From: Gillisella vitis
GTDB lineage: Bacteria > Pseudomonadota > Alphaproteobacteria > Rhizobiales > Rhizobiaceae
Direction of reading: 5' to 3'
Assembly (NCBI RefSeq): GCF_021559775.1
Contig: NZ_CP056050.1
Span: 1 to 64,000 of the forward strand
DNA: 64,000 nucleotides
Both the position numbers and the translations under genes were made by a program. How positions within the stretch are numbered: position 1 is the first letter of the stretch; each line of letters starts with the position of its first letter. The notes under the pieces are model-generated. The model was not told the origin of the DNA. It searched no databases and saw only the letters and a list, made by a program, of their open reading frames with translations. This document shows positions 2,160 to 17,120 of the stretch, piece after piece.

Positions 2160-2163
2160 CGGC

Positions 2164-2218: not shown

Positions 2219-2224
2219 AGCCTG

Positions 2225-2253
2225 AGAATCGCATTTCCATGAATCGCAGTCAA
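2225..2253 (-). promoter_or_regulatory. Promoter of the antisense ctRNA
   Basis: Minus-strand TTGACT at 2253-2248 is a near-consensus -35; 17 nt downstream GATTCT at 2230-2225 is a weaker -10. It lies at the expected distance before the ctRNA terminator. Confidence 0.6.
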
Positions 2254-2313
2254 GAGTCTTTGGCGCCGGTTTGGTGAGCTGATTTCCTTTGCCTTTAGAA
2301 AGGTGAGAGGAAA

Positions 2314-3528
2314 ATGCAAATAGGAAATGTGACGACGCCATTCGGGCGGCGGCCGATGACGCTTGCCTTGGTGAAGGCTCAGCTTTCGACGGCAAACATC
2401 AAGGCGGGTAAGTCCGTCGACAAGTGGAAAGTTTATCGCAGCGCATGCGAGGCGAGAACGACACTCGGTCTGCGTGACCGTGCTCTTGCTGTCTTGAATG
2501 CCTTGCTGACATTCTACCCAGAACAGGAGCTGAGCGAAGAGAACAATCTCGTCGTCTTTCCATCAAACGCGCAGCTGGCGATCCGAGCGAACGGGATCGC
2601 AGGAACGACGCTACGCGAAAACCTTGCTATTCTTGTCGAGGCTGGGCTTATCCAGCGGAATGACAGTCCGAACGGCAAACGTTACGCTCGGAAAGGAAAC
2701 GACGGTGCGATCGAAACCGCCTACGGTTTCAGCCTCGCGCCGCTCCTTGCCCGGGCAGAAGAACTCGCAATCATGGCTCACCGGGTCGCCGAGGAGAGCA
2801 GGCGGCTGCGCGTCATAAAAGAGCGCATCACGATAACCCGCCGAGATATCCGTAAGTTCATCAGCGCGGCGGTGGAAGAAGGCGCGGCAGGAAATTGGCA
2901 AGCTGTCGAAGACGCTCTCGTGTCCGCAATTGCTCGTCTCAAGACGGCAAAGACGGCGGCGGCCCTCGAAGCTTGCCTCGACGAACTGACGTTGATAAGC
3001 GAAGAAGCTGTCAACATGCTGGAAATACAGCTTATTTCTACAGAATCCGATGCCAATGGTAGCGGAAACCGTCATCACATACAGAATTCAAATACCGAAT
3101 CCTTAAATGAACTTGAACCCAGCTCTGAAAATGAGCAAGACGAGAGAATGGTGCCAAACCGGAGATCGGCTGCCGAACCGATAAAGGCTTTCCCGTTGGG
3201 TATGGTGCTGCGGGCTTGCCCACAAATATCGGATTACGCGACAGGTGGCGCAATCTCGCATTGGCGGGACCTGATGACCGCCGCAGTGGTGGTGCGAACC
3301 ACACTCGGGGTCAGCCCGTCGGCCTACCAAGAGGCCTGCGAGGCGATGGGACCCGAGAACGCCGCGGTCGCAATGGCCTGCGTCCTAGAGCGGGCAGGGC
3401 ACATCAATTCACCAGGGGGATACCTGCGTGACCTGACAAGGCGGACTGAAAAAGGCGAATTCTCGCTTGGGCCGATGCTGATGGCATTGCTTCGGACGCA
3501 GGAGGCAGATGGCCGCAAGTCTGCATGA
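2314..3528 (+). CDS. repC: RepC, replication initiator
   Basis: RepC is the only protein needed for replication of repABC plasmids; it binds the origin lying inside its own gene. The 404-residue product has the normal family length, with the conserved winged-helix N-terminal half (WKVYRSACEARTTLGLRDRALAVL, then VVFPSNAQLAIRANGI and TTLRENLAILVEAGLIQRND), a variable acidic middle, and the conserved C-terminal part ending near SPGGYLRDLTRR. The ATG at 2314 follows GGTGAGAGGAAA, a good ribosome site. Expression is expected to be limited by the ctRNA in the preceding gap. Confidence 0.95.
   Translation: MQIGNVTTPFGRRPMTLALVKAQLSTANIKAGKSVDKWKVYRSACEARTTLGLRDRALAVLNALLTFYPEQELSEENNLVVFPSNAQLAIRANGIAGTTLRENLAILVEAGLIQRNDSPNGKRYARKGNDGAIETAYGFSLAPLLARAEELAIMAHRVAEESRRLRVIKERITITRRDIRKFISAAVEEGAAGNWQAVEDALVSAIARLKTAKTAAALEACLDELTLISEEAVNMLEIQLISTESDANGSGNRHHIQNSNTESLNELEPSSENEQDERMVPNRRSAAEPIKAFPLGMVLRACPQISDYATGGAISHWRDLMTAAVVVRTTLGVSPSAYQEACEAMGPENAAVAMACVLERAGHINSPGGYLRDLTRRTEKGEFSLGPMLMALLRTQEADGRKSA
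3050..3115. other. Candidate oriV region inside repC
   Basis: The middle of repC turns relatively AT-rich here, in the stretch coding a low-complexity, serine- and asparagine-rich segment. In studied repABC plasmids the origin lies in such a segment of repC. Position is inferred from that precedent plus composition, not from a recognised motif. Confidence 0.35.
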
Positions 3529-3591
3529 GCCATGGAACGGTTCTGACTCAACAGTTGCCACGGCGCGGCTTCCACTCGTTCAGTCAGCAAA

Positions 3592-3607
3592 ATTGCCAGC
3601 CGTACAA
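3592..3607. promoter_or_regulatory. Second parS-like site downstream of repC
   Basis: ATTGCCAGCCGTACAA lies 64 bp after repC and differs at only three positions from the 16-mer at 1102-1117. Rhizobial repABC plasmids often carry parS after repC (the incgamma region). Confidence 0.55.
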
Positions 3608-3682
3608 ATGGTGGTTTTATTGAATAGAAACATAGATTTGAGAGGTTACCTACATCGTTGCTTGGGTTCCATAGGTGTCATA

Positions 3683-4498
3683 TCAAGCGATGTTCGCTTC
3701 GCCAGAAATGTGCGCAATGACATTCGCATCCAGCAAGATTCCGTGGATTAAAGCGGCTTCCCAGCAGTTCCTTGAACCGCTCTTGACTACGTCGAGGAGA
3801 ATATGGCGTAGCGCGTCCTTGGTGGCAGTGTCATTGAGGCACGCAACGAATTCTTTGGCGTCTCTAACACGCTGCGGATATCCATCGAAAAATGTTTCAA
3901 CTCGGCCGTAGAATTGTTCGCCTAAGACGTTGTCCAGATGGAAGCGAATGATGCTGGTTTCGTCTGCTGACAAGTTTGACATCGGCTCTGCTTTGAAACG
4001 GGGAGCTTCGTAAGGTGGCAGGACCTTCACGGGCCAAATGGCAGAGTCAGCAAGCTTATCGAAATAAGGATGGATGAACCTTTCAGGAGACGTCTCACCT
4101 CGGTAAGTGTCGGCTTTACGCTGACGTTGCACGACCAGCACGCCGGTAAGAGGATCCTCGATAGGATCCTGAATTCCGGAAAATAGCGGCGTGGTAGGTA
4201 ATGGTCCAAAGTGCCCGTATTTTGCGAGCCGCACATAGCGGCAGCATCTCAACCTGCGGGTTCTCTTTATGCGTCGCAATGCTCCATTTCTCTTGCGAGT
4301 GTCATAGAGTTTACGAAGAGCTTTTTGCAGAGGCTTCGAAAATGTCGCCGGATTAATCCGCCACGGATCAGCGGAGAAAAGGATGTAACTGACGTAAGCG
4401 GTCGTCCATGTTTCCTTCGCGTTTTTCCAAGGTCGACGCGCCAGAAGCTGCACGAGTACTGCGTGATCATCCTCAATTGGGGCGTCTAAAACGAGCAT
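3683..4498 (-). pseudogene. HNH endonuclease-like gene (PtuB-like) with two compensating frameshifts
   Basis: The open frame gives 271 residues, but the HNH core is not in it. The second frame (4027-4236) encodes MCGSQNTGTLDHYLP followed by a PACWSCN block, a clear CxxC...DHYLP...CxxC HNH zinc domain. The first frame supplies the N-terminal part (to about residue 87) and resumes at ETSPERFIHPYFDKL. One indel near 4226 and an opposite one near 4110-4120 would restore a single protein of the same length. As written, the catalytic segment is replaced by out-of-frame residues, so the product should be inactive unless the lesions are sequence errors. It starts 2 nt after the stop of the upstream ATPase remnant, suggesting an ATPase-HNH operon of the Septu kind. 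Confidence 0.6.
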
Positions 4499-4500
4499 TT

Positions 4501-4626
4501 TTATCGATCCTCGTTTGCGGCTTTTGGACCAAGAAGGCGTCGCACATATGAGAGGGTCTCCGGGTTCATATCAGCTCCGTAGTTCTCCAGGACCATCTCC
4601 GATGGTTATTTCGTCCCCAAAGGATT
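4501..4626 (-). pseudogene. 3' end of an ATPase-like gene cut by IS3 (Septu PtuA-like)
   Basis: Immediately before the HNH gene the minus strand reads NYGADMNPETLSYVRRLLG to a TAA stop at 4501-4503, a tail resembling that of AAA/OLD-type ATPases paired with HNH proteins. The IS3 element (4627-5896) separates it from upstream sequence. Joining the flanks after removing the IS and one ATT target copy gives a continuous frame (NTIRKWVKSFGDEITIGDG) that runs into the tail after one further small frameshift near 4595. The ATPase core is not present; an IS903-like remnant takes its place. Assignment to PtuA is inferred from gene order and the HNH partner. Confidence 0.4.
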
Positions 4627-4663
4627 TGGACTTGCCCGAAAAAAGTGGAGAGCGAAGGCTTCT

Positions 4664-5533
4664 TCAGGGTGTCAGCTTGAGAGGGATGCTCTCGAACTGA
4701 ATTGGGCTTTTGTAGCCCAAGGAGGAATGTCTTCTTTTTGGATTATAGAAGGCGTCGATGTATTGTCCAATGGCGATTTCAGCTTGGGTCCTTGTTTTGA
4801 ATACAGTTCGCCAAACCAGTTCTGACTTGATTGTCTTGAACACGGTTTCCACCATGGAATTGTCATAGCAATTGCCCTTGCCGCTCATCGACAGGATGAA
4901 CCCGTGGGCTTTCAGAAGCTTTTGGTAGTCGATCGCGCAATATTGACTACCACGGTCGGAGTGGTGAATGACATCCTTCGGCGGTCTGCGGATGGCTATG
5001 GCCCGTCGTAATGCCGTCAATGCCAGGTCCTGCTTCATTCGATCACTGGTGGCCCAGCCGATAATACGTCGAGAATAGAGATCGACAACAATGGCCAGAT
5101 AGAGCCAGCCTTGCGTCGTCCAAACGTAGGTGATGTCAACACCCCACTTCTGATTTGGACCTGTGGCGGCAAAGTCCTGATCCAGAATATTGGGGGTAAC
5201 AGGCCCTTTGTGATCGCTGTCAGTTGTTCTCTTGAATCGGCGTTTCTGCAATGCCTTCAAACCATTGTCATGCATGATGCGAGCAACCCTGTGGCGACCG
5301 ACGCAAACCCCGTCTTCCTTCAGTTCCACCGTCATGCGTGGGCTTCCATAGGTTTCATGTGAGGTGGTGAACTGAGCCCGGATATGAGCCAAAAGAACCA
5401 TGTCCGCCCTTTGCCGCAGGCTTGGTTTGCGTATGTCCCAAGCGTAATATCCGCTTTCACTGACACCCAGAAGCGTGCAGGCACGCTGAACAGGAACATT
5501 GGCCTTCTCTGCCGCAATGACCTTGAATTTCAT
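4664..5533 (-). CDS. IS3-family transposase OrfB (DDE integrase)
   Basis: 289 residues with an HTH_21 region and an rve-type DDE catalytic core. The acidic residues sit in WGVDITYVWT (D), HHSDRGSQY (D) and NSMVETVFKTIKSE (E), and the C-terminal YNPKRRHSSLGYKSP motif is intact. It catalyses transposition of the surrounding element, probably as the frameshifted OrfAB fusion. Confidence 0.9.
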   Translation of the reverse strand: MKFKVIAAEKANVPVQRACTLLGVSESGYYAWDIRKPSLRQRADMVLLAHIRAQFTTSHETYGSPRMTVELKEDGVCVGRHRVARIMHDNGLKALQKRRFKRTTDSDHKGPVTPNILDQDFAATGPNQKWGVDITYVWTTQGWLYLAIVVDLYSRRIIGWATSDRMKQDLALTALRRAIAIRRPPKDVIHHSDRGSQYCAIDYQKLLKAHGFILSMSGKGNCYDNSMVETVFKTIKSELVWRTVFKTRTQAEIAIGQYIDAFYNPKRRHSSLGYKSPIQFESIPLKLTP

Positions 5534-5838
5534 TTCATGGTTTCCTTTGCAAAGAAGGCGGCTGCTTTTTTTAATAAATCGCGCTCCTGACGCAGAATTT
5601 CATTTTCCTTGCGAAGACGCGCCAGTTCCTTGGCAGTATCTTCGTGTGGTCCAGAAAGCAGGTCGGCTTCCTTGTGGGCGCTCACCCATTTCCCAAGCGT
5701 CGAGAGCCCAACGCCAAGATCATCGGATATTGCACGCAACGGCCTGCCGCTGGTGCGCGCAAGTCGGACAGCCTCAGCTTTGAAAGCATCTGTGAACTTG
5801 GCGTGGCGGCCGGGTGAATTCTTCTTCGTGTTCGTCAT
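5530..5838 (-). CDS. IS3-family transposase OrfA
   Basis: 102 residues from the ATG at 5838 (MTNTKKNSPGRHAKF). It has the helix-turn-helix of IS3 OrfA proteins (FTDAFKAEAVRLARTSGRPLRAIS region) followed by a leucine-zipper-like coiled coil (ELARLRKENEILRQERDLLKK). A run of seven A then G (AAAAAAAG, minus strand near 5565) gives a classic A_AAA_AAG slippery site, where -1 frameshifting would make the OrfAB fusion transposase. The stop overlaps the orfB ATG. Confidence 0.88.
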   Translation of the reverse strand: MTNTKKNSPGRHAKFTDAFKAEAVRLARTSGRPLRAISDDLGVGLSTLGKWVSAHKEADLLSGPHEDTAKELARLRKENEILRQERDLLKKAAAFFAKETMK

Positions 5839-5994
5839 AGGGCGAAATCCTATCAAAGGTTAGGGATTCGCTCTTCACTTCTTCCGGGCAAGAACAATTT
5901 GACCCATTTGCGAATCGTGTTTTGGTATTGGTGCCTCACCACGGTCGTGTTGCGGTGGTCAGATTCGGGTTGAGAAACCCTACCCTTTGAATTT

Positions 5995-7046
5995 TCATGC
6001 CACGCGCTTGAACTCTGGGCGGCCAAGGTCAGTCATCTGGTTGATGAGCACGGACGCCAATCTTTGGTTCTGTCGTCTGATTGTCGAAGCTTCTCGCATT
6101 GAGTTTTGTCCCGATGACCGTCTTCCATCGGCCCACCGGGGTCTCGATCCAGCTGCGTTGATTGTAGCCGGTGGATTTCTGCCAGGCCATCCGGCTCCTG
6201 GTCGAGATTTCCGCGATATGACGGTTTCGCGCGGATGGTTTAAGCGTCGATTGCGGGCTAGCAATCGGCAGTCTTGGGAGGCAGAATAATGACCTCGACG
6301 ACCTCACCAAGGCGTGTCGCCAGAAGGTCTCGGGTTGGAGATCCGACATAGGCACCGTCAGCGATAACCTTGGCGATCGGGCTGTCAATCTGGCCAAGAA
6401 GACCAGGCAAGGCTTTCGGATCGCCGACGTCATTCGTGGTCAGCTCCGAGCAAATAAACTCTCCGCTGACAAGATCAAGACCAAAGTGAAGCTTGCGCCA
6501 TCTCTTGCGTTTGACTTTGATTTTGTGTTTGTTTTCCAACCACTCACCTTCACCAAAGACCTTCAGGCCCGTGCTGTCGACCACCAGATGAACAGGGACC
6601 AGGACTTGCCGTTGACCGCCGCATAGGCGGCAATACCTGCCCCTTGCCCCGCCGTGACAAAGTGGAGAAATCCGGAACGGCAATGCCAACGCCCATCAGC
6701 GTCGCAATACTGCGCATCATGCCCTGAGTCTGGCGCAAAGGCTGATCGTAAACAACACGTAAGCTCAGGCACATGGTGATGGCCAAGTCCGAATATTTCG
6801 GCTGGACGCCTCGAGATGTTCGGCACGGCGCTGACCATTGAGAAAGCGCTTCATCGCTTATCCAGACGGTCAAATCACCACGCGGACGAAGGCTTTCATT
6901 ATACGTAGTCCAATTCGTGACCTTATATTTCCGCGTCGGTATCTTGTGCCGACGGTTGTCATTGTGCTTATGCGGCATCAAAAATATCCTACGACCAAAA
7001 ACACTCACCCGATATCAGAAGCCCGGCGGTTCGTGCAACAAGGCCC
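5995..7046 (-). pseudogene. Broken IS903-like (IS5-family) transposase and element remnant
   Basis: Transposase homology is spread over three frames. The N-terminal part starts at MPHKHNDNRRH (6978), the middle (about 6270-6600) contains VVDSTGLKVFGEGEW and VIADGAYVG, and the C-terminal part (about 5995-6250) contains RNRHIAEI and RMAWQKSTGYN and ends GRPEFKRVA at a TGA at 5995-5997. At least two frameshifts separate these blocks. One outer end is recognisable as GGGCCTTGTTGCACGA reading leftward from 7046; I could not find the opposite end. Confidence 0.75.
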
Positions 7047-7399
7047 GTCCAACCTATCAACCCATACGGCATCCGCCATCTATCAGACTTTCCCAGTCAC
7101 TGAGGCGCGTCGGATCCTGACTTCGCAGTGTTAAATTTAGTGCCTTTGATCCGCATCTTCTGCATTTGTAGAACCTCTTGCGCGCACCACAACATGTCGA
7201 TGAGATCAGGATTGAGGCGCCATTTACAAGCCGATTGACATCACTTCGTTACTCTCATAGCTGGGCGCATGAGTGAAAATATCAACTTTTTGCTGATCAT
7301 TTAAATATACTTAAGGTGTTATTGTTAATATATAACCATTTATGCGTGCATTACGCAGACGTGGAAACAAGCTATTAAATCAAAAGAGAGGTTGCGTGA
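7047..7399. other. Intergenic stretch, AT-rich leader of the small membrane gene
   Basis: No convincing gene. The last 130 bases (from about 7270) are distinctly AT-rich and probably hold the promoter of the gene at 7400, although no clear -35/-10 pair stands out. Confidence 0.4.
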
Positions 7400-7774
7400 A
7401 TGAAATTTCTTCAGCGTATTTTTAGTGGCGTACGGCCAATTTATCTCATTAGGTCATATCTGATCAGCCTGTTTTTTTTCGGCTTGATGCTGAGCACGGT
7501 ACTGAATGCCGAAACCAAGACCAGTACACCTATCGGCACAATCGTATTTTCTACGTCGAGCGCGGTTCTATTTCCTTTCGCCAAGCTGGTCTGGGACGAG
7601 CTTCGCGATCTGGCATTTGGGAATAACATAATTTTTATGAACGCGGTTTTTCTGCTCATTCTCAAATTGTTTGTCAACGTCCTGCTGTGGGGGGGCGCGG
7701 TCTTCATTGCGCCAATTGGAATTCTGTACCTATGGTTCCGTACTCGCCAGTCGCAAGATACCGTTGAACTGTAG
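7400..7774 (+). CDS. Small hypothetical membrane protein
   Basis: 124 residues, not recognised. Three hydrophobic stretches are visible: about residues 17-36 (LIRSYLISLFFFGLMLSTVL), 46-62 and 76-112 (the last long enough for two passes), ending in a short polar tail. A good ribosome site (AAGAGAGG) lies 8 nt before the ATG and a hairpin follows at 7818-7837, so it looks like an expressed single gene. Its composition is more AT-rich than its neighbours, suggesting separate acquisition. It is isolated between mobile-element remnants. Confidence 0.6.
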   Translation: MKFLQRIFSGVRPIYLIRSYLISLFFFGLMLSTVLNAETKTSTPIGTIVFSTSSAVLFPFAKLVWDELRDLAFGNNIIFMNAVFLLILKLFVNVLLWGGAVFIAPIGILYLWFRTRQSQDTVEL

Positions 7775-7817
7775 TCCATTTGGCTATTGATTTAATTGCG
7801 CAATTCGATGTGAATCA

Positions 7818-7837
7818 GGGCAGGACGAGTCCTGCCC
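7818..7837 (+). terminator. Hairpin downstream of the small membrane gene
   Basis: GGGCAGGA and TCCTGCCC form a perfect 8-bp stem around CGAG, 44 bp after the stop. The following TTGTCAGATTTTA is only weakly T-rich, so termination strength is uncertain. Confidence 0.6.
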
Positions 7838-7877
7838 TTGTCAGATTTTAGCCCATCTGCGCATCAGCGACGGCATA

Positions 7878-8040
7878 GGCCTTGTTGCACGAGCCCGCTC
7901 TGCGCCATCGTCTGCTTGAGGAAATGGCGCGGGAAGGAGTGGTGCTTGTGACCGAAGGTATCGTGCGCCAGCCGTTCGACATTGATCTGATAATGGTTCA
8001 TGGTTACGAATTCCCGCGGGAGGATGGTGGGCCAATGTGG
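7878..8040 (+). pseudogene. Fragment of a 3-hydroxyacyl-CoA dehydrogenase (FadB/FadJ-like) next to a solo IS end
   Basis: After GGCCTTGTTGCACGAG (7878-7893), which matches the end of the IS903-like remnant, the plus strand reads EGIVRQPFDIDLIMVHGYEF then GGPMW. This fits the C-terminal block of multifunctional fatty-acid oxidation proteins (EEGIA.RPSDIDVV...GYGFP...GGPMF). Only about 50 residues remain and similarity stops near 8040. I read it as a scar left after an insertion and deletion. Confidence 0.5.
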
Positions 8041-8316
8041 GCATCAGGAGACCTGAGAAATAACAACTTTTCACGGTCGCCTTCGGTCATTCCCCAGCCA
8101 AGGTCCGCGCGTGAATCACGGGTCATTCCGCCTCTCACGAGCAGCGCGATGTCGCGGCCATGAGCCCCGCGCGCTCGATCAGATTGCCTCATCAGATTCC
8201 TATTTTGAATCAGAAAACAAGCGAAAGTGGGCGGTTTTTAGAGGTGTCCAACTGGCGATCAAGACATCGTAAACTTAACGTTCCAAGGCCAAGAAAGCGC
8301 GATATTTGCTGGGATC

Positions 8317-8524
8317 ATGCAACGTGAAGGCGAGCGAAGTCTCGCCAAGTATCCTCGTAACTGGTCGGCGATCACAGTCGAACAGTTCGTCGGAGAGGTT
8401 GATGCCTACATCCGCTGGTACAACGAAAAGCGCATCAAGCTGTCGCTCGAATCGCTAAGCCCGGTCGAGTATCGTAAGATACTTGGTATTAACATATGAA
8501 GGAGTCCAACTTTTTATCCGCATC
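8317..8524 (+). pseudogene. 3' remnant of an IS3-family OrfB gene
   Basis: Sixty residues containing ITVEQFVGEVDAYIRWYNEK and SLESLSPVEYRK match the C-terminus of IS150-like OrfB transposases. The catalytic core is absent. GGAGTCCAACTTTTTATCC just after the stop resembles the terminal repeat of such elements. Confidence 0.65.
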
Positions 8525-8548
8525 CCCCAACAGTAGGGGAGGGGCCAG

Positions 8549-9682
8549 CTACAGCCCTGCGGCTTTCGTCAAATTGACCCTGAAACGATCCCTTCTCCGC
8601 TGGTACCTGCGGGTCATCTCGGCTGAGGCATGACCGAGTTGCTTCTGGATATAGCGTTCGTCGACTTCGGCGGAGGAGGCGAGACCGGCGCGCAGGGAAT
8701 GGCCGGAGAATTTGAAGGCGCGTTCAATCTCGCTGAGATCGCCACGAACCCCGGCAGCCAGGGCAGCCCGTTTCACCAGCCTTGCCACTTCCTTATCGTT
8801 CAAACGGTTTGGCCCAATGGACTTGCCTTGTCCTGTGACGCGGCGGAAGAGGGGGCCATGGGCAAGTCTGGCAAAGGTGATCCAGCTTTCGACAGCGACC
8901 ACCGGGCAGGTGGTATCGGAGGATCCGCGGCCGATTTCGACCTCGCGCCAGCCCGTCTTGCCGCGCAGGGTGACGAGCATGCCTTTGTCGAATATTTCGA
9001 TCCAGCCGCGCCCGTCTTCGGTTTGGTCAGGTTTGATGTCGAGACCGACAATTTCGGACCGCCGCAGACCACCGGCATAACCGATCAGCAGCATGGCCCG
9101 ATCGCGGAAGCCTCGCAGCGTTCCCCGATCGAGTGTCTCGATCATGGCAATGATATCCTCGGCCAGTACCGCTTCCTTCTGCATAGGTGGTCGCCCATGG
9201 CTGTTGCGAATGCCGGCCATGACGGTGGCGATATGCCGATCCTTGCGGTCGAGCGAGAGACCACGCTGGGCTTAGTTCCAAGATAGTGATGAGAGGCGCC
9301 GTTCGATGGTTGAGACGGAGTTGGCCTTGGCGCCCCTTTCTGCTGAGCCCGAAGCGCAGGCCGTGATGTAGAGCCCGACTGTTTGGGGATTCGGGGGGAG
9401 GGGGGCCAGGTTCGATCGCCGGCACCACGCTGAGAAATGTTTCCAGTCTGAGGCATAGGCCTTTCGGGTATTTGCGGAACTTGCCGCCTCTACATAACCA
9501 CGGGCGCGGTCGGCAAGGTTGGCGAGATGGGCCTGTGGCTGGTTTACTCCAACAGGAGAGGGGAGGGTACTGTCGTGTCGCACCTGCGGCGCGCAAACAT
9601 CACCCTCAGCCGCCATGCTGAGAGACGGTGCTGAGCTCTCCTGGAGGTAAATTTCGGTGTTTTGCTCGACGATTTGGACCAT
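8549..9682 (-). pseudogene. Tyrosine recombinase/integrase interrupted by an in-frame TAA
   Basis: The N-terminal SAM-like core-binding domain (ANTRKAYASDWKHFSAWCRR) runs from the ATG at 9682 to a TAA at 9272-9274. The same frame continues without loss: AQRGLSLDRKDRHIATVMAG, then the catalytic domain with GLRRSE (Arg), HSLRAG (His-x-x-Arg), QLGHAS and the nucleophile region TRRYQRR. A single base change (a sense codon, plausibly Tyr, to TAA after SLSWN) explains the break; the full protein would be about 377 residues. A 35-bp palindrome lies 16 bp before its start, and DUF1403 and scpB genes lie beyond it on the other strand. It may act in plasmid multimer resolution or element integration. 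Confidence 0.8.
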
Positions 9683-9697
9683 TTCTTTATAATGAGC

Positions 9698-9732
9698 ATA
9701 ATGCCCGATAATGCAAGATTATCGGACATTAT
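9698..9732. repeat. 35-bp palindromic site beside the recombinase gene
   Basis: Arms ATAATGCCCGATAAT and (complement) ATAATGTCCGATAAT match at 14 of 15 bases around a 5-bp centre GCAAG. Size and form resemble a tyrosine-recombinase core site (two binding arms and a short crossover region), though an operator is possible. It sits between the divergent recombinase and DUF1403 genes. Confidence 0.7.
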
Positions 9733-9806
9733 TTCTCACCGACAGGGCGTGCGGTTTTACGCGATATATCTGGCATAAACCGCGCTCATGGTTTATGCTC
9801 TGCCGC

Positions 9807-10760
9807 ATGGATTCGCTTGCGCCAGCCACCGCGCCAACTTTGACATGGTCGCCCCGCCTGCCGAGCTGGACGCGGCCGCGAACGCACGACATCACGGAAT
9901 CTGACGCCTCCTTCGCCGCCGGTATCACGCTGAAATCCCTCGACGATTTGATCCGCACCGAGCCGCCGTGGCTCGGCTGCTGGCGCGACCGCCTTGCCTT
10001 GAAATCAGCCGCTGTCGCGGCCCGAACGCTCGGTCGCAACGAGGAAGAAACCGGTATCCGCGACGCGGTTTTGTTGACGTCCGCAGGTGATGATCCAGGA
10101 CCAGCTGGAAAGCTGTTTCTGGCCACACGAATGCTGGCGCGTCAATCCGGGACTGTCACCACACCGTTCGTTAAGGAGCTTGTCGCGCTGCTGGGGATGA
10201 AGTGGGACGACAGCCTTGCTTCGATCCCCGAGATCGTCGATTCTGCAAATCAGTCCGGGCGAGCAGCACCCTTCGCGGTGGCGGACCTGATAACGGCGAT
10301 CTATGCCGTTCGCCCGGACGCCGAGGTAATGGCCCTTAGCCTCGCCGAACTCGTGCTGGCGAACAAGCTGAAATGGCCGAAACCCGTGCCGCTGCTGTTG
10401 CCCGAGCGGTTTGGCCCGGCGTTCCGCACTATCGGTGGTCGCGGTCGCGTCCGGCCGGGTGAGCCAGCCTATCCGAAAGCAATCTGCCTGGCATTGGTGG
10501 ACGGCGTTGAGGCCGCGCTACGGTCTGCAGTGGACATCGACCGCCGCGCTGCGCGGTTGTTGACCGTCGCTCCGAAAGTACGAACCAAAGGCGCCGAGCC
10601 GGTCATCCGCCGATTGCTGGCCGACGATGCGATCTCAGCCTCGGCGCCTGACAGCACCCTGTCGCGCTGGGCGGCCAACCGGCTGTTCGAGCGACTTGAA
10701 AGTCTTGAGGCGGTGCGCGAACTGTCCGGCCGCTCCGCTTTCCGGATCTTCGGGTTGTGA
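9807..10760 (+). CDS. DUF1403 family protein
   Basis: 317 residues from the ATG at 9807 (MDSLAPATAPTLTW); the frame is open further upstream to 9711, but that part overlaps the palindrome and looks non-coding. Family of unknown function found mainly on rhizobial plasmids beside scpB and a tyrosine recombinase, as here. Predicted largely helical and soluble, with no enzymatic motif that I can see. Its stop overlaps the scpB start region, so the two are likely co-transcribed and translationally coupled. Confidence 0.8.
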   Translation: MDSLAPATAPTLTWSPRLPSWTRPRTHDITESDASFAAGITLKSLDDLIRTEPPWLGCWRDRLALKSAAVAARTLGRNEEETGIRDAVLLTSAGDDPGPAGKLFLATRMLARQSGTVTTPFVKELVALLGMKWDDSLASIPEIVDSANQSGRAAPFAVADLITAIYAVRPDAEVMALSLAELVLANKLKWPKPVPLLLPERFGPAFRTIGGRGRVRPGEPAYPKAICLALVDGVEAALRSAVDIDRRAARLLTVAPKVRTKGAEPVIRRLLADDAISASAPDSTLSRWAANRLFERLESLEAVRELSGRSAFRIFGL

Positions 10761-11461
10761 CTATGACGGGAGCGAGCGCAGCCAAACCATCCCGCCGGAA
10801 GGCGAGCGCCGCAGACGACCGTCTGTTTGATCGGGAGTTGGAGGATTTGCCGGCGGAGATGCGCTGGCGGGAATGGATGATGCGGATCGAGGCGGTGATC
10901 TTTGCCTCGGCCGAGCCGGTCAGCCGCGAAACGTTGGCGCGGGTGGTGGGAAGAGATTGCAGTATCGATCTGCTGATCGACGACCTTGTCGAGGAGCTGC
11001 GAGACCGGCCCTACGAACTGGTATCGGTCGCCGGCGGCTGGCTGCACCGAACCCGACCGCGGTTTGCCGAGACGATCCGCGCGTCTTCGGCGCCGACCAG
11101 GGGAGGGGCCGCCGCGCTGTCAGAGTTCGAGGCGATGGTGCTGATGGCGGTGGGATATTTTCAGCCGGTCACGCGCGGCGAACTGTAAAAGATCTTTGGC
11201 AAGGAGATCAGTCGCGACACCATCGGCAGCTTGCGTGGTTCGGGGTTCATCGGTTCCGGGCCGCGCAGCCCGACGCCGGGTGCGCCGTACACTTACGTGA
11301 CGACCCAGCACTTCCTCTCGGCTTTCGGCATGGAGACCCTGCGCGATCTCCCCAACATCGAGGCGCTAGAGGATGCCGGATTGCTCGGCCGAAACGTCGC
11401 AATGCGCAACGACCAAACTGATGAGGCGCGGGATTCAATCGCTGAAGACGATGGCGAGTGA
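10757..11461 (+). pseudogene. scpB: ScpB-like SMC-kleisin subunit with an in-frame TAA
   Basis: ScpB proteins are winged-helix (kite) partners of the SMC-ScpA condensin. Here the first winged helix (EAVIFASAEPVSRETLARVV) and start of the second (SEFEAMVLMAVGYFQPVTRGEL) are followed by TAA at 11186-11188. The same frame then continues KIFGKEISRDTIGSLRGSGF and FIGSGPRSPTPGAPYTYVTT to 11461, matching the rest of ScpB. A single base change would restore a protein of about 233 residues. No plasmid SMC or ScpA is present, so it may have used the host complex. Start may be GTG 10757 (overlapping the DUF1403 stop) or ATG 10763. Confidence 0.8.
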
Positions 11462-11520
11462 TCCGCGGATGCTGACAGCGGGCCCCCGATGGTTCGAATC
11501 AAAATGGGCGTATAAGCGGC

Positions 11521-12110
11521 CTAGCCTTTCACTCCGTTATCCGATGGTAATGCGGCTGCGGTCGATGAACCGAAATGCACGACGACGAAGCTAGTGCGCT
11601 CGAAAAACCGCATTATCCAAAGGCTACGAATGTCGGAACCGGCACCAAGATTTACGAATGCGTATTGTAGAACGTCGGGTTCGGCATGGTGGTATTGCAT
11701 AGCGTCGATAGTCTCGTCTGGAAGTGTATACCTCATCACGTCTGCAACGATCTCGTCGTCTCATATTGCAGATTGTATGCCGTGAAAATGAGATAGCCCC
11801 CTGACAATCTTTCGCACCGTTCGAAGGATACGTTCGTCTCGTGCCGGATAGATCTTGTAGCGTTCTCCTTCTAGCTCCGGCACCCGCTCCATCAAGGCAA
11901 AGATCTCTCTCGCTCTGCGAGCGCCATCGACCTGTGCGAAGGCTCGGCGGGTGGGGCCATCCCATAATTCAGTTGCCGAGGCGTTGGGTTCTCCGGCTAC
12001 AAGAATGACGTTTCTGAAATGTGCGTCTGTGGGACCACATGTTCACGAGTAGTCAGACGGTACTTGCCGCAAAGCGCGCAATGGTCCCATCGATTCAGTC
12101 TGCCCATAGA
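11521..12110 (-). pseudogene. Hypothetical HNH-like protein, one frameshift and one TGA stop
   Basis: The minus strand begins MGRLNRWDHCALCGKYRLTT then REHVVPQT, a CxxC...TREHVVP pattern typical of small HNH-type zinc domains. A one-base shift near 12020 moves the frame to ILVAGEPNASATELWDGP; after the segment ending LSHFHGIQSAI, a TGA at 11761-11763 is followed in frame by DDEIVADVMRYTLPDE and on to the stop at 11521. The reconstructed protein would be near 195 residues. It follows the SEC-C gene on the same strand. I do not recognise the family. Confidence 0.5.
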
Positions 12111-12213
12111 TCCTCTCTGTAATACGATCTGTGATCGACGGCGGGCCTCACGAAAGCTGGCACGTTTCAGCTTCAAATGCATTCGGTGCGGATGCAACCC
12201 TTGCATCCAGACC

Positions 12214-12863
12214 CTAAAACTGGATCAAGCTCGAGCAGCACTTCTTGAATTTTCTTCCGCTGAGACAAAAGCAACGGTCGTGTGGTCTCGTATGTCTTGC
12301 AATGTCGACGAATACGGCCCCGAGGCTATTCTGGACATTTCGTGCGAGGATCGCCAACTCGTCACGATCAATTGTAAAGGTGTTTCCTATCGAATGTCGT
12401 TCGATAGTTTCCTGCAAAACACCGTAGCCGCGATCCAGGACGACACGCTAGCGAACCTCTCGTGGCTCCTTTTAATGTTAATTCGGCGTTTTTGCCCCAC
12501 GAAGTCATACGTGCTCTTCGGGTCGGGCAGGAAGAGAATTTCACTCTCGCCGTGTACATGAGGCGTTATGTCGACAAACGTGCCTTTCGATTCCCAAACC
12601 GCATGATGTTCTGCCTCAATGAACACATTCGGCCATTCCCAGACCAGCCATCCGTAGACGAGAGTACCGCCTTCTTTGGAAACTCTGGCCATGACGTTGT
12701 TGAAGCATTCCGACGGCTGGGCCATCGGATCAGGCATCACCGGAAGATAACGTGGCTTGGCATCTGGGCTTATTTCTCGACAGAAATCGATTACCGCTGC
12801 GTTGAGAGCCTTCGGCGCGGTGGTGTAGCTATTCTTGAAGAGTTCAGTGCTGATCGCGGGCAT
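12214..12863 (-). pseudogene. SEC-C motif protein with a frameshift
   Basis: The first frame starts MPAISTELFKNSYTTAPKAL and reads to SHERFASV. A one-base shift near 12445 continues it as VLDRGYGVLQETIERHSIGN and ends with CFCLSGRKFKKCC, a SEC-C zinc-binding tail (CxC...CC). The restored protein would be about 215 residues. It begins 57 bp after nucC on the same strand and precedes the HNH-like pseudogene, so the two may once have extended the CBASS transcript. Function unknown. Confidence 0.6.
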
Positions 12864-12920
12864 AGCGGAAGCTCAATCGTATAATGGCGTGGAGATGTCG
12901 TTCGCTTTAGCCGTCGGCGA

Positions 12921-13652
12921 CTAGCTCGGAAGATCTACATCAAGCCAACGCGCATAAGCCCGAATATCGATCATGGGAACAGTCGCCTGCTCCTGCAGCC
13001 GCGCAATCAATTCAAAGAGAAAAGCCGTCGCTGGTTTGCGCATGGGCGTTATCGTATTCTCTCGGTCGGCATCGCGTGCGAAGATTCCATGCGCGGCCAC
13101 GCATCCCAAATCGAGCCGATCGGATTCGTCGCCGTCTGTGAGTGCCCTCGTGAGAGGATCGCCCAAGCCAGGCGACCAGTCACTTTCCAGCGTCAACAAC
13201 CCGCCGATTATGTGCTGCAACGGCTTGGGCGGATATTTTCCGCCAGCATGTGGGATCGGCAAGCTTGTACGATGTAGGGATCGTACGCTCGCGACTTTAT
13301 TTCGGGCATACGCGACCTGTTCGGAATTGATCGACTGCTTGGCCTCGAACACCGCATAAACGCTCTCAGCCGGAATGACGGTTTGGCCCTGAAAGGAAAA
13401 GATGAAGGGTGAATACTGGCGATCGAATACGACGACGTCGATTTGATCGCTGAAGGCACCTGTGCTGTCCACAACGTGGGCAGATGCTGCCTTGTATCGG
13501 GTGGGCAAATAGGTCTGCAACATCTCAAGCCAGACGGCCTCACTAGCTTCGCCCTTCGTTCCCGGATGGCCGAAAGCCTTGCGGGCGCGACCAAGGCGCT
13601 CCTGGATATCGTCATGCAGCTCCGAGAGGAGCGTCTGGATCGACCAACTCAT
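12921..13652 (-). CDS. nucC: NucC, cyclic-trinucleotide-activated DNA endonuclease (CBASS effector)
   Basis: NucC is the effector of type III CBASS: on binding a cyclic trinucleotide it assembles into hexamers and destroys DNA, aborting infection. The 243-residue protein has the family length (about 241) and a near match to E. coli NucC throughout, for example GRARKAFGHPGTKGEASEAV and IDVVVFDRQYSPFIF. Catalytic residues of its restriction-endonuclease fold are present: D72 in QIDVVVFD and E103/K105 in VFEAKQS. It overlaps cap6 by 4 bp (ATGA), so it is translationally coupled as last gene of the operon. Intact by every motif I can check. Confidence 0.95.
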   Translation of the reverse strand: MSWSIQTLLSELHDDIQERLGRARKAFGHPGTKGEASEAVWLEMLQTYLPTRYKAASAHVVDSTGAFSDQIDVVVFDRQYSPFIFSFQGQTVIPAESVYAVFEAKQSINSEQVAYARNKVASVRSLHRTSLPIPHAGGKYPPKPLQHIIGGLLTLESDWSPGLGDPLTRALTDGDESDRLDLGCVAAHGIFARDADRENTITPMRKPATAFLFELIARLQEQATVPMIDIRAYARWLDVDLPS

Positions 13653-14602
13653 CTTGCAACCTTTTCTGCGGGGACTTCGTCTCGGAACGCTGGCGTCGCC
13701 GTCATGGCCTTGGCGATCTGTACCGCGCGCATGCCTTCAACCGGCTTGTTCGGATACGCATCAAGTGCGATGGCCGGGAGCAAACGTTGGGTGAGATCGG
13801 AAAATGTGAAGCCTGGAACATCGCCGGCTGCGCCCGTTGCTTCCACGAGCATGTGTAACTGCTCTTTGGAAACCCCAAGCGGTCCGAGGCGGAGTGAAAG
13901 TATGTGAAGTCGCTGCTCTCGGTTCGGGCGTGCAAACGCTAGAATATCGGCCGCTCGACGCCGCACCGCGGGATCGAGTGCATTAAGCCGGTTCGTGCAC
14001 ATGATGACAGCCGCGGGCAACCGCAGGTTTGCAAGCCGATCAATGCCTCTGATGAAAGCATTGACTCCTGCCCGGTCTTCATGGTGCATCTGCGCGGCCT
14101 CTCGCGACTGCGCCAAGGCGTCGGCTTCGTCAACAAGCAGGATGATACCACCTTTGGCTTTGCGTTCTCCCTTGAGTTTGGCTGCCGCTTGTACCGTGTG
14201 CTCGAACGCAGCCGATAATAGCTGGGTCATCTCGCCGACGCGGCCTTGACCGCGCGTAGCGAGACTGAGCGGAAAGAGAGTGATCTCGATCTCTTCCTGC
14301 CGAGCGACGGCATCCCCAATCGTCTCGGCGAGCTCGGTCTTACCCGATCCGACATCTCCAGCAAGGACAACGAGCGGCGGGCGACGCAGGATGACGTCGA
14401 GCAACGGTCGCGCTTCCGCTGCATGAAATCGAGTAGCCCATTTTTCAAGCCCTTGCGGATTGACCATGAGGCCGAGGATTTTTGCTAGGCGTGACTTTTG
14501 GTCATCAAGACCGACGAGTCGCGCGAGTCGCTCCTGGGGCTCGAAATCAGGATAACTTTGACGGCGTTCGAAGAGTTCATCCAGCCCAGGCATGTTCTGC
14601 AT
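13649..14602 (-). CDS. cap6: Cap6, TRIP13/Pch2-like AAA+ ATPase of CBASS
   Basis: In type III CBASS this ATPase remodels the HORMA protein and so restrains the cyclase. I start it at ATG 14602, which overlaps the cap7 stop (TGATG) and has AAGGAG six bases upstream; an ATG at 14620 is an alternative. The 317-residue product has Walker A GDVGSGKTE (82-90), Walker B ILLVDEADAL (about 154-163), a sensor region MCTNRLNALDPAVRRRA and a small C-terminal AAA lid. Order cdnC-cap7-cap6-nucC matches the E. coli MS115-1 type operon. Confidence 0.93.
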   Translation of the reverse strand: MQNMPGLDELFERRQSYPDFEPQERLARLVGLDDQKSRLAKILGLMVNPQGLEKWATRFHAAEARPLLDVILRRPPLVVLAGDVGSGKTELAETIGDAVARQEEIEITLFPLSLATRGQGRVGEMTQLLSAAFEHTVQAAAKLKGERKAKGGIILLVDEADALAQSREAAQMHHEDRAGVNAFIRGIDRLANLRLPAAVIMCTNRLNALDPAVRRRAADILAFARPNREQRLHILSLRLGPLGVSKEQLHMLVEATGAAGDVPGFTFSDLTQRLLPAIALDAYPNKPVEGMRAVQIAKAMTATPAFRDEVPAEKVAR

Positions 14603-15114
14603 CAGTAGCTCCTTACGCACGAGCGATCGAGTGCCCGACCACCGGCAGAGTAGGTGCGGTCGGAGGCGAAATAGCCGTTCACCGGCGGTTCAGTCCCGGT
14701 GGAACGTTGAAAGGGAAGCCCACTTTTGAAAGCGTCACGATCGCTTTGAGGCAGCGCAAAATAGGCGTCCGTGTAAGCCAAGAAACTGGTGAAAGATGCG
14801 CCGGAGACATCTTTGCCGGGACGAATTTTACCGGGATCGTCGTCATTTGCCGTGCCATTGGCAAGATCGCGCGCGGTGTACTTCAGCGTCGGTTCGATCC
14901 AGGAGCCGTCGCGCTTGAAGCCATAGGTTACAGACGACAGATAGCCCGCCTTCATCATAGCAACGGCCTCGGCCTCATAATCGGCGATGGTCTGATCGGT
15001 TGGTTTGCCATAAAACCGCTGAATGCGTTTAAGGTCAGTCGCAATCTTTACGGCCATGTGGCGCGCATGCGTGACGGTGAATGTTGTGCTTTCTGTATAG
15101 CTGTAGCTGGACAT
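14602..15114 (-). CDS. cap7: Cap7, bacterial HORMA-domain protein of CBASS
   Basis: Bacterial HORMA proteins bind the CD-NTase and switch it on when they sense a closure peptide, presumably from the infecting phage. The 170-residue protein starts MSSYSYTESTTFTVTHARHM and includes DLKRIQRFYGKPTDQTIADY and SSVTYGFKRDGSWIEPTLKY, the signature blocks of the single-HORMA type III systems. Only one HORMA gene is present, as in E. coli MS115-1, not two as in some Pseudomonas operons. It lies 8 bp after cdnC and overlaps cap6. GAGGG precedes the ATG. Confidence 0.93.
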   Translation of the reverse strand: MSSYSYTESTTFTVTHARHMAVKIATDLKRIQRFYGKPTDQTIADYEAEAVAMMKAGYLSSVTYGFKRDGSWIEPTLKYTARDLANGTANDDDPGKIRPGKDVSGASFTSFLAYTDAYFALPQSDRDAFKSGLPFQRSTGTEPPVNGYFASDRTYSAGGRALDRSCVRSY

Positions 15115-15122
15115 TGCAGCCC

Positions 15123-16088
15123 TCAGACCTGGAACGTTGAACCGAAGACCTTCTGCCAGTAGCCGACGGTCAGTTGCTTGTTGGGGGCCGCCAATGCGGC
15201 GTCGATCGCGTCGCCAGCATCGAGCGCGGCATCGACGATGTCGTCCATGTTGGCGCCTGTGTAGAGGCGCGAGACATTGTTCACAGCGTTCACCGGATCG
15301 ATGATCCGCATAGGTTCGGAGAATGAGCCAATGCTGGAGAGCGGATAGTAGTCAGAGAAGGCGATCCGCTCTTTGAGGCCGCTCGTCGCGATGTAGGTGA
15401 AGAAGTGCTGCAGCGCTTCGGGATAGTCGGACAAATCAAGACCATCATCGCAGAGTTTGGCCATGATCAGCTCGATCATGAACGATTTGAAACGGAAGCC
15501 GTCGCGCTCTTGTTTTTGGCGGCGCGCCCAGAATTTTACGAGCCTGACGACCTGGGCAAAATGCTTCTCTTGCGCCTTCTTTCGCTTGCCCGCGAATTCC
15601 AGATGAAGGGGAATGCTGGTCTTGAGGAATGATCCGTCATCCTGGCTCACCAGGTTTCCATACCATTGTGGATCACCATCGTAGAGGATCGGGACGACAT
15701 CGACGTCCAACCCGGATCCGCGGAAAGAGACTGTTACCGAGTAAGTCTGGGGCGTCACCTGATCGGCTGCGAAGTTTGGAAAAGCCTTGCGCAGTCGCTC
15801 GGCGAGGTAAGCGAGCAGGGCGCTCACAGAATGGGGTGCATCAGCACCGCTGATATAGCAGGCAACGTCAATGTCGTTGAGGGAACGCAGTGAAGTTCCT
15901 TTTGCCAGGCTGCCCGAAAGCATCATCTTGCGAAGCGTGAAGTCAGGATGCTCGTCGAGATACGATTCCAGCTTTTCCCGCAGCCGTCGCGCCTGTGCAC
16001 GATATTCTTGCGCCTTATCTTGAGGGAGGTTCACACGCTCCTCAGCAAAGCTCAATATCTCTTGATGCCCTACATGCTCACGGCTCAT
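15123..16088 (-). CDS. cdnC: CdnC, CD-NTase cyclic oligonucleotide synthase
   Basis: First gene of the CBASS operon. Clade C CD-NTases make cyclic tri-adenylate-type signals that activate NucC. I start it at ATG 16088 (MSREHVGHQE) because GGAG lies six bases before it; the frame is open to 16124. The 321-residue protein has the nucleotidyltransferase motif GSLAKGT (59-65), the metal-binding pair D72 and D74 in NDIDVACYI, and a third acidic pair in GLDVDVVPIL (128/130), then an OAS-type helical C-terminal half. All catalytic residues are present. Transcription is divergent from capW. Confidence 0.93.
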   Translation of the reverse strand: MSREHVGHQEILSFAEERVNLPQDKAQEYRAQARRLREKLESYLDEHPDFTLRKMMLSGSLAKGTSLRSLNDIDVACYISGADAPHSVSALLAYLAERLRKAFPNFAADQVTPQTYSVTVSFRGSGLDVDVVPILYDGDPQWYGNLVSQDDGSFLKTSIPLHLEFAGKRKKAQEKHFAQVVRLVKFWARRQKQERDGFRFKSFMIELIMAKLCDDGLDLSDYPEALQHFFTYIATSGLKERIAFSDYYPLSSIGSFSEPMRIIDPVNAVNNVSRLYTGANMDDIVDAALDAGDAIDAALAAPNKQLTVGYWQKVFGSTFQV

Positions 16089-16146
16089 ACCCATCTCCAA
16101 AAATGGCGTGCCCTTGACTTCCAAGCCAAGATACTAGATTCCTGAG

Positions 16147-16175
16147 TTATCCCGATAAGAACTATATGGGTATAA
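16147..16175. promoter_or_regulatory. Candidate CapW operator in the cdnC-capW divergent promoter
   Basis: TTATCCCGATA and TATATGGGTATAA form an imperfect inverted repeat in the 115-bp gap between cdnC and capW, overlapping AT-rich promoter-like sequence. CapW proteins bind as dimers to such palindromes and repress their CBASS operon. The repeat is seen; the binding is inferred. Confidence 0.5.
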
Positions 16176-16203
16176 AAAATGCACCCGTCAAGGAATTATA
16201 TGC

Positions 16204-17097
16204 ATGGTTGATGAGAAGCGTCCATGGACACAAAATCAACGCTTCGAATTCATCGAGTGGAAGCTGTTCTGGGAAGGGGCACTCAACCGAAGTGACCTGG
16301 AGGAAATGTTTCAGATTTCGACGCCCCAAGCGTCCATCGACTTGCGTCGCTATCGGGAATTGGCTGGCGACAACATTGCCTATGACGCAACGGACAAGAC
16401 GTTCAAACCGACAAGCGGTATTAAGCCATCGTTCCTGAGGGTTTCTGCCGACCGGCTCCTGCTACAGCTGCGTGCACTGCTGACGGGTGCTCTTCCAAGG
16501 CGTGAGATATGGTTTCGAGATCTGCCGCCAATCGATATGGCGCCTGATATTGTGCGACATGTGGATCCCGATTGCTTGCGTACCATTCTCGCGGCAATTC
16601 GCTCCAAGCACTCTATCGAGGTTCGCTATCAATCTTTGACCAATTCCCGAATCAGGGAGATCGCGCCTCATGCACTCGCCTTCGATGGCTACAGGTGGCA
16701 CGTTCGTGCCTGGGCGTGCGATCGCGATGATTTTCGCGACTTCGTTTTGACGCGCATTGATCAGATTAAGCCAGGTACACCCGCAGACTTCGATTCTGAA
16801 GACGACCTGGAATGGAACACGGTTGTTTCGCTGGATCTTCGTCCGCATCCCGGTCTAACGGAAGACCAGGCACTCGCCATTCAGCGCGACTACGCGATGA
16901 CCGACGGCCAGCGGGTAATCGAAGTGCGGCTATCCATGGCATATTACTTCATCATGCGGATGAATCTGGATCTTACAGATCTCCCCCCGGCACGGGCTCA
17001 AATTTGTCTGCATAATCTTGAGGCGATTCAGAGCAATATTGGAGCGGCGAGAGCTGGGTCGAAGCGGCGAATCGTTGACCGGAAAAATCGGAAATGA
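16204..17097 (+). CDS. capW: CapW, WYL-domain transcriptional repressor of CBASS
   Basis: 297 residues: an N-terminal winged helix (about 8-75), a central WYL domain (about 125-195, with HSIEVRYQSLTNSRIREIAP and FDGYRWHVRAWACD) and a C-terminal WCX extension. CapW is the known repressor of many CBASS operons; it releases DNA under stress, possibly on sensing a nucleic-acid ligand through WYL. It is divergent from cdnC, the expected location. AAGGAA precedes the ATG by 7 bases. Its 3' end converges on abiEii. Confidence 0.88.
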   Translation: MVDEKRPWTQNQRFEFIEWKLFWEGALNRSDLEEMFQISTPQASIDLRRYRELAGDNIAYDATDKTFKPTSGIKPSFLRVSADRLLLQLRALLTGALPRREIWFRDLPPIDMAPDIVRHVDPDCLRTILAAIRSKHSIEVRYQSLTNSRIREIAPHALAFDGYRWHVRAWACDRDDFRDFVLTRIDQIKPGTPADFDSEDDLEWNTVVSLDLRPHPGLTEDQALAIQRDYAMTDGQRVIEVRLSMAYYFIMRMNLDLTDLPPARAQICLHNLEAIQSNIGAARAGSKRRIVDRKNRK

Positions 17098-17120
17098 GCC
17101 TCGTTTCGCGAGTCGATCGA

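Follow-up and report, generated by a model that had tools for sequence, protein, structure and literature searches.

Site-specific recombination systems such as Cre/loxP and Xer/dif exchange DNA conservatively at a palindromic core with a short centre. In the present study, we analyzed a locus resembling these systems in a stretch of 64,000 nucleotides (hereafter, the window), which is the first 64 kb of plasmid pAvCG678b of Agrobacterium vitis CG678 (NZ_CP056045.1, 370,902 bp; 100% identity over 3,501 bp). The contigs of the CG678 genome (6.02 Mb) are referred to as C1 to C5; C3 is pAvCG678a and C4 is pAvCG678b. The locus carries the gene of a tyrosine recombinase, a palindrome, and the genes of a DUF1403 protein and of ScpB, a condensin subunit. 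It shares with Cre/loxP and Xer/dif the palindromic core with a short centre, conservative exchange, and, in a scan of contigs many of which were not whole replicons, a single exact site per contig; it differs from them in its own recombinase subfamily and in an extra operon and a dyad beside the site. We consider it probable, at approximately 0.6, that the region is a decayed plasmid module in which the recombinase gene and the DUF1403-scpB pair diverge from the palindrome, the crossover site of the recombinase, that the module served to resolve plasmid multimers or cointegrates, and, with less confidence, that DUF1403 and ScpB had an accessory role.

Related systems have been described on rhizobial plasmids. 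IntA of Rhizobium etli CFN42 joins and separates plasmids, and the accessible text of two papers gives its attA and attD sites a role in cointegration (PMC4928290, PMC3224233). The attA site is printed as TCCGATAAGCATTACTTATCGGA, and the arms of attA and attD in that text, CCGATAA..TTATCGG, are the same as those of the site described here (PMC4928290). The centres differ, with GCATTAC/GCAGTAC in the R. etli system and TGCAAGA in the window. The arrangement is also shared, namely, a tyrosine recombinase gene downstream of repC with a palindrome just upstream of it. Att-type palindromes lie in the records of p42a and p42d (L075:2596 and L077:5744), and we read the p42a gene at 1339-2487 as intA from its place and the att-like palindrome next to it. 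However, the recombinase examined here is not orthologous to IntA, with which it shares 29% identity across 184 aligned columns in the catalytic part. As in the IntA/att system, molecules or segments have been exchanged at the site, which was detected here by sequence comparison only. On pSmeLPU88b of Sinorhizobium meliloti, an XerD-like recombinase and the PapAT toxin-antitoxin system are encoded downstream of repABC, and dimer resolution has been proposed (PMC10194956, accessible text). The present module occupies the same place by repABC, and toxin-antitoxin genes are also found in three related loci (L078, L080, and L159). The accessible text on pSmeLPU88b names no crossover site, DUF1403, or Scp protein (PMC10194956).

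An initial interpretation of the locus, made from the letters of the window (hereafter, the sequence-only reading), had suggested a plasmid maintenance function that it regarded as undescribed. This no longer applies to a recombinase beside repABC with a proposal of dimer resolution (PMC10194956) or to the att arms (PMC4928290), at least from the accessible text of these papers; it may still apply to the coupling with DUF1403-ScpB. A literature search, with most subscription papers outside its coverage, returned no paper on DUF1403, on ScpB in connection with both plasmids and repABC, or on a plasmid "SMC-Scp complex subunit ScpB". Within this incomplete coverage, we found no printed account of the coupling to DUF1403-ScpB, of a ScpB clade confined to plasmids, of the conserved dyad, or of evidence for natural exchange at the site.

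The palindrome CCCGATAATGCAAGATTATCGGA (9704-9726), which the sequence-only reading did not mention, separates the recombinase and DUF1403 genes, which are divergently oriented; its core, CCGATAAT GCAAG ATTATCGG, occupies 9705-9725. The recombinase frame (8549-9682, minus strand) has a single internal stop, a TAA at codon 137 (9272-9274). The part before the stop, the N-terminal, core-binding side (9275-9682), is an open frame with a weak match to Phage_int_SAM_1 below the cut-off (E 0.0046), while the catalytic part past the stop (8549-9220) matches Pfam Phage_integrase (E 8.4e-16). The PF00589 catalytic domain is present and an uninterrupted recombinase gene is absent from the window. On the plus strand, the DUF1403 gene (9807-10760; PF07183, E 2.2e-147) encodes 317 amino acids without interruption. 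It is followed by a plasmid-type scpB, of which the first part (10763-11185; PF04079 [SMC_ScpB], E 2.5e-15) ends at a TAA at codon 142 of 232 (11186-11188), and the part past the stop (11189-11461) matches the same family (PF04079, E 5.8e-9). The sequence-only reading was thus accurate on the three genes and their positions, which all gave Pfam matches, and on the two stops with frames continuing behind them; each translated frame contained exactly one.

A comparison of pAvCG678b with pRvVAT039b of strain VAT03-9 (NZ_AP023282.1) shows that DNA was exchanged at the palindrome, as an inversion of the rep-trb core of pAvCG678b. The alignment covered 45 kb of the VAT03-9 plasmid and 64 + 31 kb of pAvCG678b. 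The latter carries a second, uninterrupted DUF1403-ScpB pair beyond the window (358360-360014, minus strand), which adjoins trbI and is inverted relative to the first. The two pairs are swapped between the rep side and the trb side: WP_071205482 and WP_071205481, on the trb side in CG678, are on the rep side in VAT03-9, the trb side of which carries WP_071204878. Positions 1-17519 of the VAT03-9 locus (L011) correspond to 27225-9707 of the window with one mismatch in 17,519 bp, and positions 38014-45001 correspond to the other accessory side with one mismatch in 6,988 bp. The switch point falls within 24 bp (9707-9730), in and beside the palindrome, that are identical in all four aligned junctions. 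Subtraction of the two site positions on the circular record gives an inverted segment, the rep-trb core, of approximately 20.5 kb.

It is extremely improbable that the inversion arose by ordinary homologous recombination between the DUF1403-ScpB copies. These copies are inverted and 78.5% identical over 1,681 bp, as such an event would favor. However, the crossover lies in the palindrome, although the genes contain four longer stretches of identity (38, 38, 31, and 26 bp) that homologous recombination could have used and did not. Furthermore, the DUF1403 proteins were relocated without change, their accessions being identical in the two strains, and the histories of the whole family break at the same place, as described below.

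Both stop codons recur identically in VAT03-9; around the recombinase stop, the two strains agree at all of 1,156 bp, and the scpB copy has one difference. Since VAT03-9 was sequenced independently, the stops are real and not sequencing slips. The public gene table of pAvCG678b omits both broken genes, and this table never lists pseudogenes. Uninterrupted recombinase frames are located on C5 (378 codons) and C3 (381 codons) of the CG678 genome, and the C5 region was found in VAT03-9 at 100.0% identity. The pre-stop part of the window recombinase is 76% identical to the C5 recombinase. The tyrosine recombinase residues R, K, HxxR, H, and Y are present by pattern in the post-stop part and in the C5 copy; past the stop, GLRRSE, GKTG, HSLR, and LGH..Y are all found, which we take to be the corresponding motifs. 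Since the recombinase gene of pAvCG678b is interrupted by the same stop in CG678 and VAT03-9, an uninterrupted recombinase of a co-resident plasmid (C3 or C5) most likely performed the inversion and is thus likely to have acted in trans.

Alignments also reveal a further exchange at a site junction on another CG678 plasmid, pAvCG678a (C3). To the right of its site, the sequence matches pRvVAR0630b (strain VAR06-30) for 1,456 bp at 98.0% identity; in the latter plasmid, this sequence follows trbI and not a recombinase. To the left, the match is to pAtS4e (strain S4) at 95-96%, and it holds at 96.2% up to 7 bp beyond the site core. The rep-trb core of pRvVAR0630b likewise lies between two inverted sites.

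The same place marks a change of history across the family. The linkage scan used 19 hand-picked loci with a directly adjacent recombinase together with the window (20 rows), and was then performed on 19 rows without L049; L065 and L068 were left out because their DUF1403 is fragmentary. Pairwise distances in 500-bp blocks of 19 loci correlated between blocks to the left of the palindrome (0.81) and between blocks to the right (0.71; permutation P 0.0005 each), but not between left and right (-0.10, P 0.72). A rerun on 25 rows, to which L012, L023, L043, L054, L061, and C5 were added, again without L049, left the result unchanged (0.87, 0.65, and -0.16, respectively). For neighbouring 250-bp windows, r was approximately 0.3-0.8 on either side of the palindrome and -0.1 to -0.2 at the palindrome itself, and fine mapping showed that the recombinase-side history is lost within approximately 40 bp of the site. 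At the protein level, 34 loci had DUF1403, the first 141 amino acids of ScpB, and a 223-amino-acid recombinase part uninterrupted and close to each other; three near-duplicates were dropped. In a Mantel test on the remaining 31 loci, recombinase and DUF1403 distances were uncorrelated (-0.096, P 0.75), while the halves of one gene gave 0.51 for DUF1403 and 0.79 for the recombinase part. These distance comparisons show that exchange at the palindrome was frequent enough in the history of the family to uncouple its two sides. The term cassette, by which the sequence-only reading implied a block inherited as a whole, is therefore unsuitable. Since the crossover is confined to 24 bp at the palindrome and the histories change there, we conclude that the palindrome has acted in nature as a joint for site-specific recombination.

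We searched for further sites. With up to two mismatches, CCGATAAT-N5-ATTATCGG occurs in four places in the 6.02 Mb genome (C3, C4 twice, and C5) and not on C1 or C2. Each of the four adjoins a DUF1403 copy; the second C4 site has one mismatch, and the core site is exactly the same on the co-resident C4 and C5. Counts on the 63 genome loci with DUF1403 (site position, rep neighbourhood, interruption, and motif) were based on 60 of them, with the fragments L070, L073, and L074 omitted. The site stands at -100 to -102 of the DUF1403 match start in 51 of the 60 (no mismatch in 38, one in 9, and two in 4). A pattern scan of 247 family genomes yielded 31 exact sites in 26 genomes, and the backward control yielded none. 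No contig had two of these exact sites, many of the contigs not being whole replicons. Of the 30 exact sites that were fetched, 24 have a recombinase to the left, and 24 (22 under a stricter cut) have a DUF1403 frame that extends to the right flank. Five genomes have two exact sites each, and in every one of them the two sites share their 7-bp centre (shuffle P 0.0006, with kinship uncontrolled).

These sites may also be read as serving mainly plasmid fusion in transfer, with an IntA-like joining of a non-transmissible plasmid to a conjugative co-resident one and without multimer resolution as a task. We consider this somewhat unlikely. The arms are those of attA and attD, for which the accessible text of published work gives a role in cointegration (PMC4928290, PMC3224233), C4 and C5 share exactly the same core, and the centres agree within each of the five genomes with two sites. 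However, the catalytic part of the recombinase has just 29% identity to that of IntA, and one site per contig near the rep genes also resembles a resolution system. It is very unlikely that the unit is an integrative mobile element with the palindrome as its attachment site. A tyrosine recombinase adjoins the site, accessory defence genes follow DUF1403-ScpB in the window, and 8 of the 63 loci contain a further palindrome (one or two mismatches) in the fetched stretch, several of which are of the IntA type. However, a single palindrome was found in most loci, and the recombinase stays on the rep side and not on the variable side.

Two further arrangements of sites were noted. In one genome (G545), L172 and L187 are exact palindromes with the same rare centre, TGCAAAA, and with no recombinase or DUF1403 within 1.5 kb on either side. 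In L126 (NZ_AP023275.1, 140000-180000), a rep-trb core lies between a recombinase-site-ScpB copy and a trbI-side site; the two are in inverted order and have different centres.

The sequence-only reading depended on the recurrence of the gene order in other replicons, and the order does recur, on plasmids and often by repABC. The divergent arrangement of the recombinase and DUF1403-ScpB was found on plasmids of Rhizobiales and Rhodobacterales, far above chance. DUF1403 matched 671 of 72,556 plasmid records in addition to the 63 genome loci. An evenly sampled scan of the class found it in 4 of 385 genomes, including that of CG678, with three above the cut-off; therefore, DUF1403 is rare in the class as a whole. 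Ten distant plasmid regions, which range from Sinorhizobium to Roseobacter, all have DUF1403 adjoining ScpB, and in eight the site precedes DUF1403 (at most one mismatch). A recombinase is annotated next upstream in six of the ten, with a VapBC pair intervening in two; it appears only past a transposon in L083, and L084 is cut by the start of the record. Rep genes are in view in five of the ten. We also examined 48 loci for which 8 kb preceding DUF1403 and as much as 8 kb following it were available. With the A. vitis Rep proteins as queries, 23 of them had rep genes on the recombinase side, and none had rep genes on the DUF1403 side. In the window, repABC (1-3528, plus strand) forms the backbone side of the joint; repB and repC are annotated in the public record, the repA frame (1-1098) served as the RepA query, and repC is 5 kb from the recombinase gene.

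The DUF1403-ScpB pair could, in principle, be an independent segregation or regulatory operon, the promoter of which merely lies beside the site, its linkage to the recombinase being positional. We regard this as quite possible, although not as the preferred explanation. The histories are uncorrelated across the site, the plasmid ScpB forms a separate clade, and uninterrupted trb-side copies of DUF1403-ScpB stand without a neighbouring recombinase. On the other hand, the distance between DUF1403 and the site is nearly constant, and a second dyad between them, GCGGTTT-N19-AAACCGC (9751-9783), is kept with no more than one mismatch per arm in 39 of the 46 upstream regions (shuffled mean 0.06). 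At least one of the regions with the conserved dyad is from Rhodobacterales. This dyad may function as an operator for DUF1403 or as an accessory element of the site.

Several observations weigh against the resolution module that we propose. The two sites of C4 stand in inverted order, so that recombination between them would invert DNA and not resolve it, and the rep-side and trb-side sites of pRvVAR0630b differ in their centres. A fifth DUF1403 copy (C3, near 496 kb) has no site, the sites in L169 and L176 have a recombinase and no DUF1403, and trb-side copies of DUF1403-ScpB lack a recombinase in the fetched flanks. Plasmid p42a has IntA and att, with no match to DUF1403 or ScpB in the 84 kb fetched. 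In a 2013 study of IntA, neighbouring sequences were reportedly not needed. The sites without DUF1403, p42a, the trb-side copies, and the siteless C3 copy together indicate that the two halves need not be neighbours. Moreover, the uncorrelated histories of recombinase and DUF1403 disfavor a tight co-adaptation. Some of the linkage data also fit poorly: more distant window pairs across the palindrome range from -0.25 to +0.20, the 40 bp before DUF1403 (64-104 alignment columns to the right of the site; approximately 9767-9806 of the window) follow the recombinase side (r 0.51), and DUF1403 and ScpB are only weakly correlated with each other (0.245, P 0.04; protein level, 31 loci).

We nevertheless favor the resolution module. 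Of the plasmid maintenance function that the sequence-only reading had suggested, the recurrence of the three genes on plasmids, often by repABC, and exchange at an internal site (by sequence comparison) were confirmed; the function itself is our interpretation. As follows from its family, the tyrosine recombinase would perform strand exchange at the palindrome. Like the Cre/lox or IntA/att system, it may normally serve a large low-copy plasmid, the multimers and cointegrates of which would be resolved at a site near the replication genes, and we infer that multimer resolution is its likeliest role. The reshuffling of the backbone and accessory halves would then be a by-product. We are less confident about the second half of the module. 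DUF1403 might bind the conserved dyad next to the palindrome, and together with the plasmid-type ScpB it might make the reaction selective or tie it to the host SMC-ScpA complex in segregation. The pair may thus be an accessory factor or an SMC-linked segregation module.

The CG678 genome has one chromosomal ScpB and four plasmid ScpBs. Its single ScpA match is chromosomal (C1), with none on any plasmid. The trb-side ScpB of pAvCG678b passes the Pfam ScpB cut-off (110 bits over 2-160, the full profile) and stays under that of the NCBI equivalog TIGR00281 (64.5 vs 89.2 bits). In a tree of 53 rows, a fully supported branch with a length of 2.44 changes per column separates 23 plasmid ScpBs from the other 30 rows, which are alphaproteobacterial ScpBs of the sampled genomes, taken as chromosomal. 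The plasmid ScpBs in this tree are one clade apart from chromosomal ScpB. Compared with the chromosomal SMC-ScpA-ScpB complex, the plasmid protein is therefore alike in passing the Pfam cut-off over the whole profile, but differs in its separate clade, its score below the equivalog cut-off, and the lack of a plasmid-encoded ScpA.

The substitution pattern of DUF1403 indicates that it is under purifying selection, with a median ratio of nonsynonymous to synonymous rates (dN/dS) of 0.16 across the 55 pairwise comparisons among 11 loci, in which the median dS was close to 1. A single uninterrupted match over at least 88% of the length was obtained for DUF1403 in 47 of 60 loci and for the recombinase in 34 of 60, with contig ends and missing recombinases scored as interrupted. 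AlphaFold2 models of DUF1403 were weak (mean predicted local distance difference test scores of 58.0 and 54.6), and Foldseek found no significant match with the model. In a second structural look, the best 17 rows for the first model were all Fic proteins (Z 6.5-11.0; next 4.3), as were the best 12 for the second (Z 5.4-6.6; next 4.9); both models are of low confidence, and the structural tool warns that helical models attain such Z scores through a common arrangement. The NCBIfam model RHE_PE00001 was touched at E 0.01 over the C-terminus by the L087 protein, one of two scanned, and the window protein matched no NCBIfam model. By hhalign, 50 C-terminal columns of DUF1403 align with RHE_PE00001 (probability 77). 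We take RHE_PE00001 and DUF1612 to be one family. The accessible text on DUF1612 describes it as a remote Fic-like domain plus a winged helix (PMC2686095). The Fic motif HxFx[DE]GN[GK]R was absent from all 16 diverse DUF1403 proteins, and the RHE_PE00001 proteins likewise lack it (18/18). On the basis of these models and profiles, DUF1403 may combine a Fic fold that lacks the Fic motif with a C-terminal winged helix. It is perhaps a DNA-binding pseudo-Fic protein, which we regard as a lead and not as proof.

The shape of the operon had also suggested DUF1403 as a kleisin, that is, an ScpA-like partner of ScpB. This is disfavored, and no more than that: the models are helical, Fic proteins are the best matches, and no kleisin was among the rows shown. 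A PDB sequence search with the DUF1403 alignment found nothing up to E 10, neither DUF1403 nor the plasmid ScpB matched a PADLOC defence model at E 0.001, and the 33 pattern matches in viral contigs included no DUF1403 relatives.

A wider and more speculative reading, which we consider unlikely, is that repABC plasmids of Alphaproteobacteria generally use the palindrome as a joint for swapping, at which backbone arms (rep, trb, and the recombinase) and accessory arms headed by DUF1403-ScpB are paired anew. The plasmid ScpB and a dyad-bound, catalytically silent Fic-fold protein would then use the host SMC to hold or choose sites. If this is true, a condensin subunit would have been recruited for the control of site-specific recombination. 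Large repABC plasmids, on which genes for symbiosis, crown gall, and catabolism reside, show a striking mosaicism. The exchange of partners between backbone and accessory arms at a defined site would provide a testable route to this mosaicism, and would predict where the plasmids of one cell fuse or flip. The conservation of a ScpB lineage restricted to plasmids, together with a recombination site, in Rhizobiales through to Rhodobacterales also raises a question for condensin biology.

Other features were noted around the related loci. The VapBC genes between recombinase and DUF1403 lie at L078:4104-4765, L080:4029-4687, and L159:8252-8653 (VapC alone annotated), and an octopine Ti plasmid is among these records. 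The module is also present in species now named Brucella (grignonensis, haematophila, and pecoris; L020, L048, L049, and L051). A second recombinase of the IntA type (62-89% identity to p42a IntA) is encoded near 11 of the 48 loci, approximately 1.4-7.5 kb from DUF1403 (L013, L015, L033, L036, L054, L057, L058, L061, L065, L066, and L068), with att-like palindromes in several.

In the window, overlapping frames between repC and the recombinase gene (6258-7008, minus strand) resemble, by eye, fragments of a decayed transposase. On the accessory side of the joint, PADLOC identified a set resembling a cyclic oligonucleotide-based antiphage signaling system (12921-16124, minus strand), consisting of a NucC-type effector, a TRIP13-like ATPase, a HORMA protein, and an oligonucleotide cyclase, and an AbiEi/AbiEii toxin-antitoxin pair at 17121-18951.

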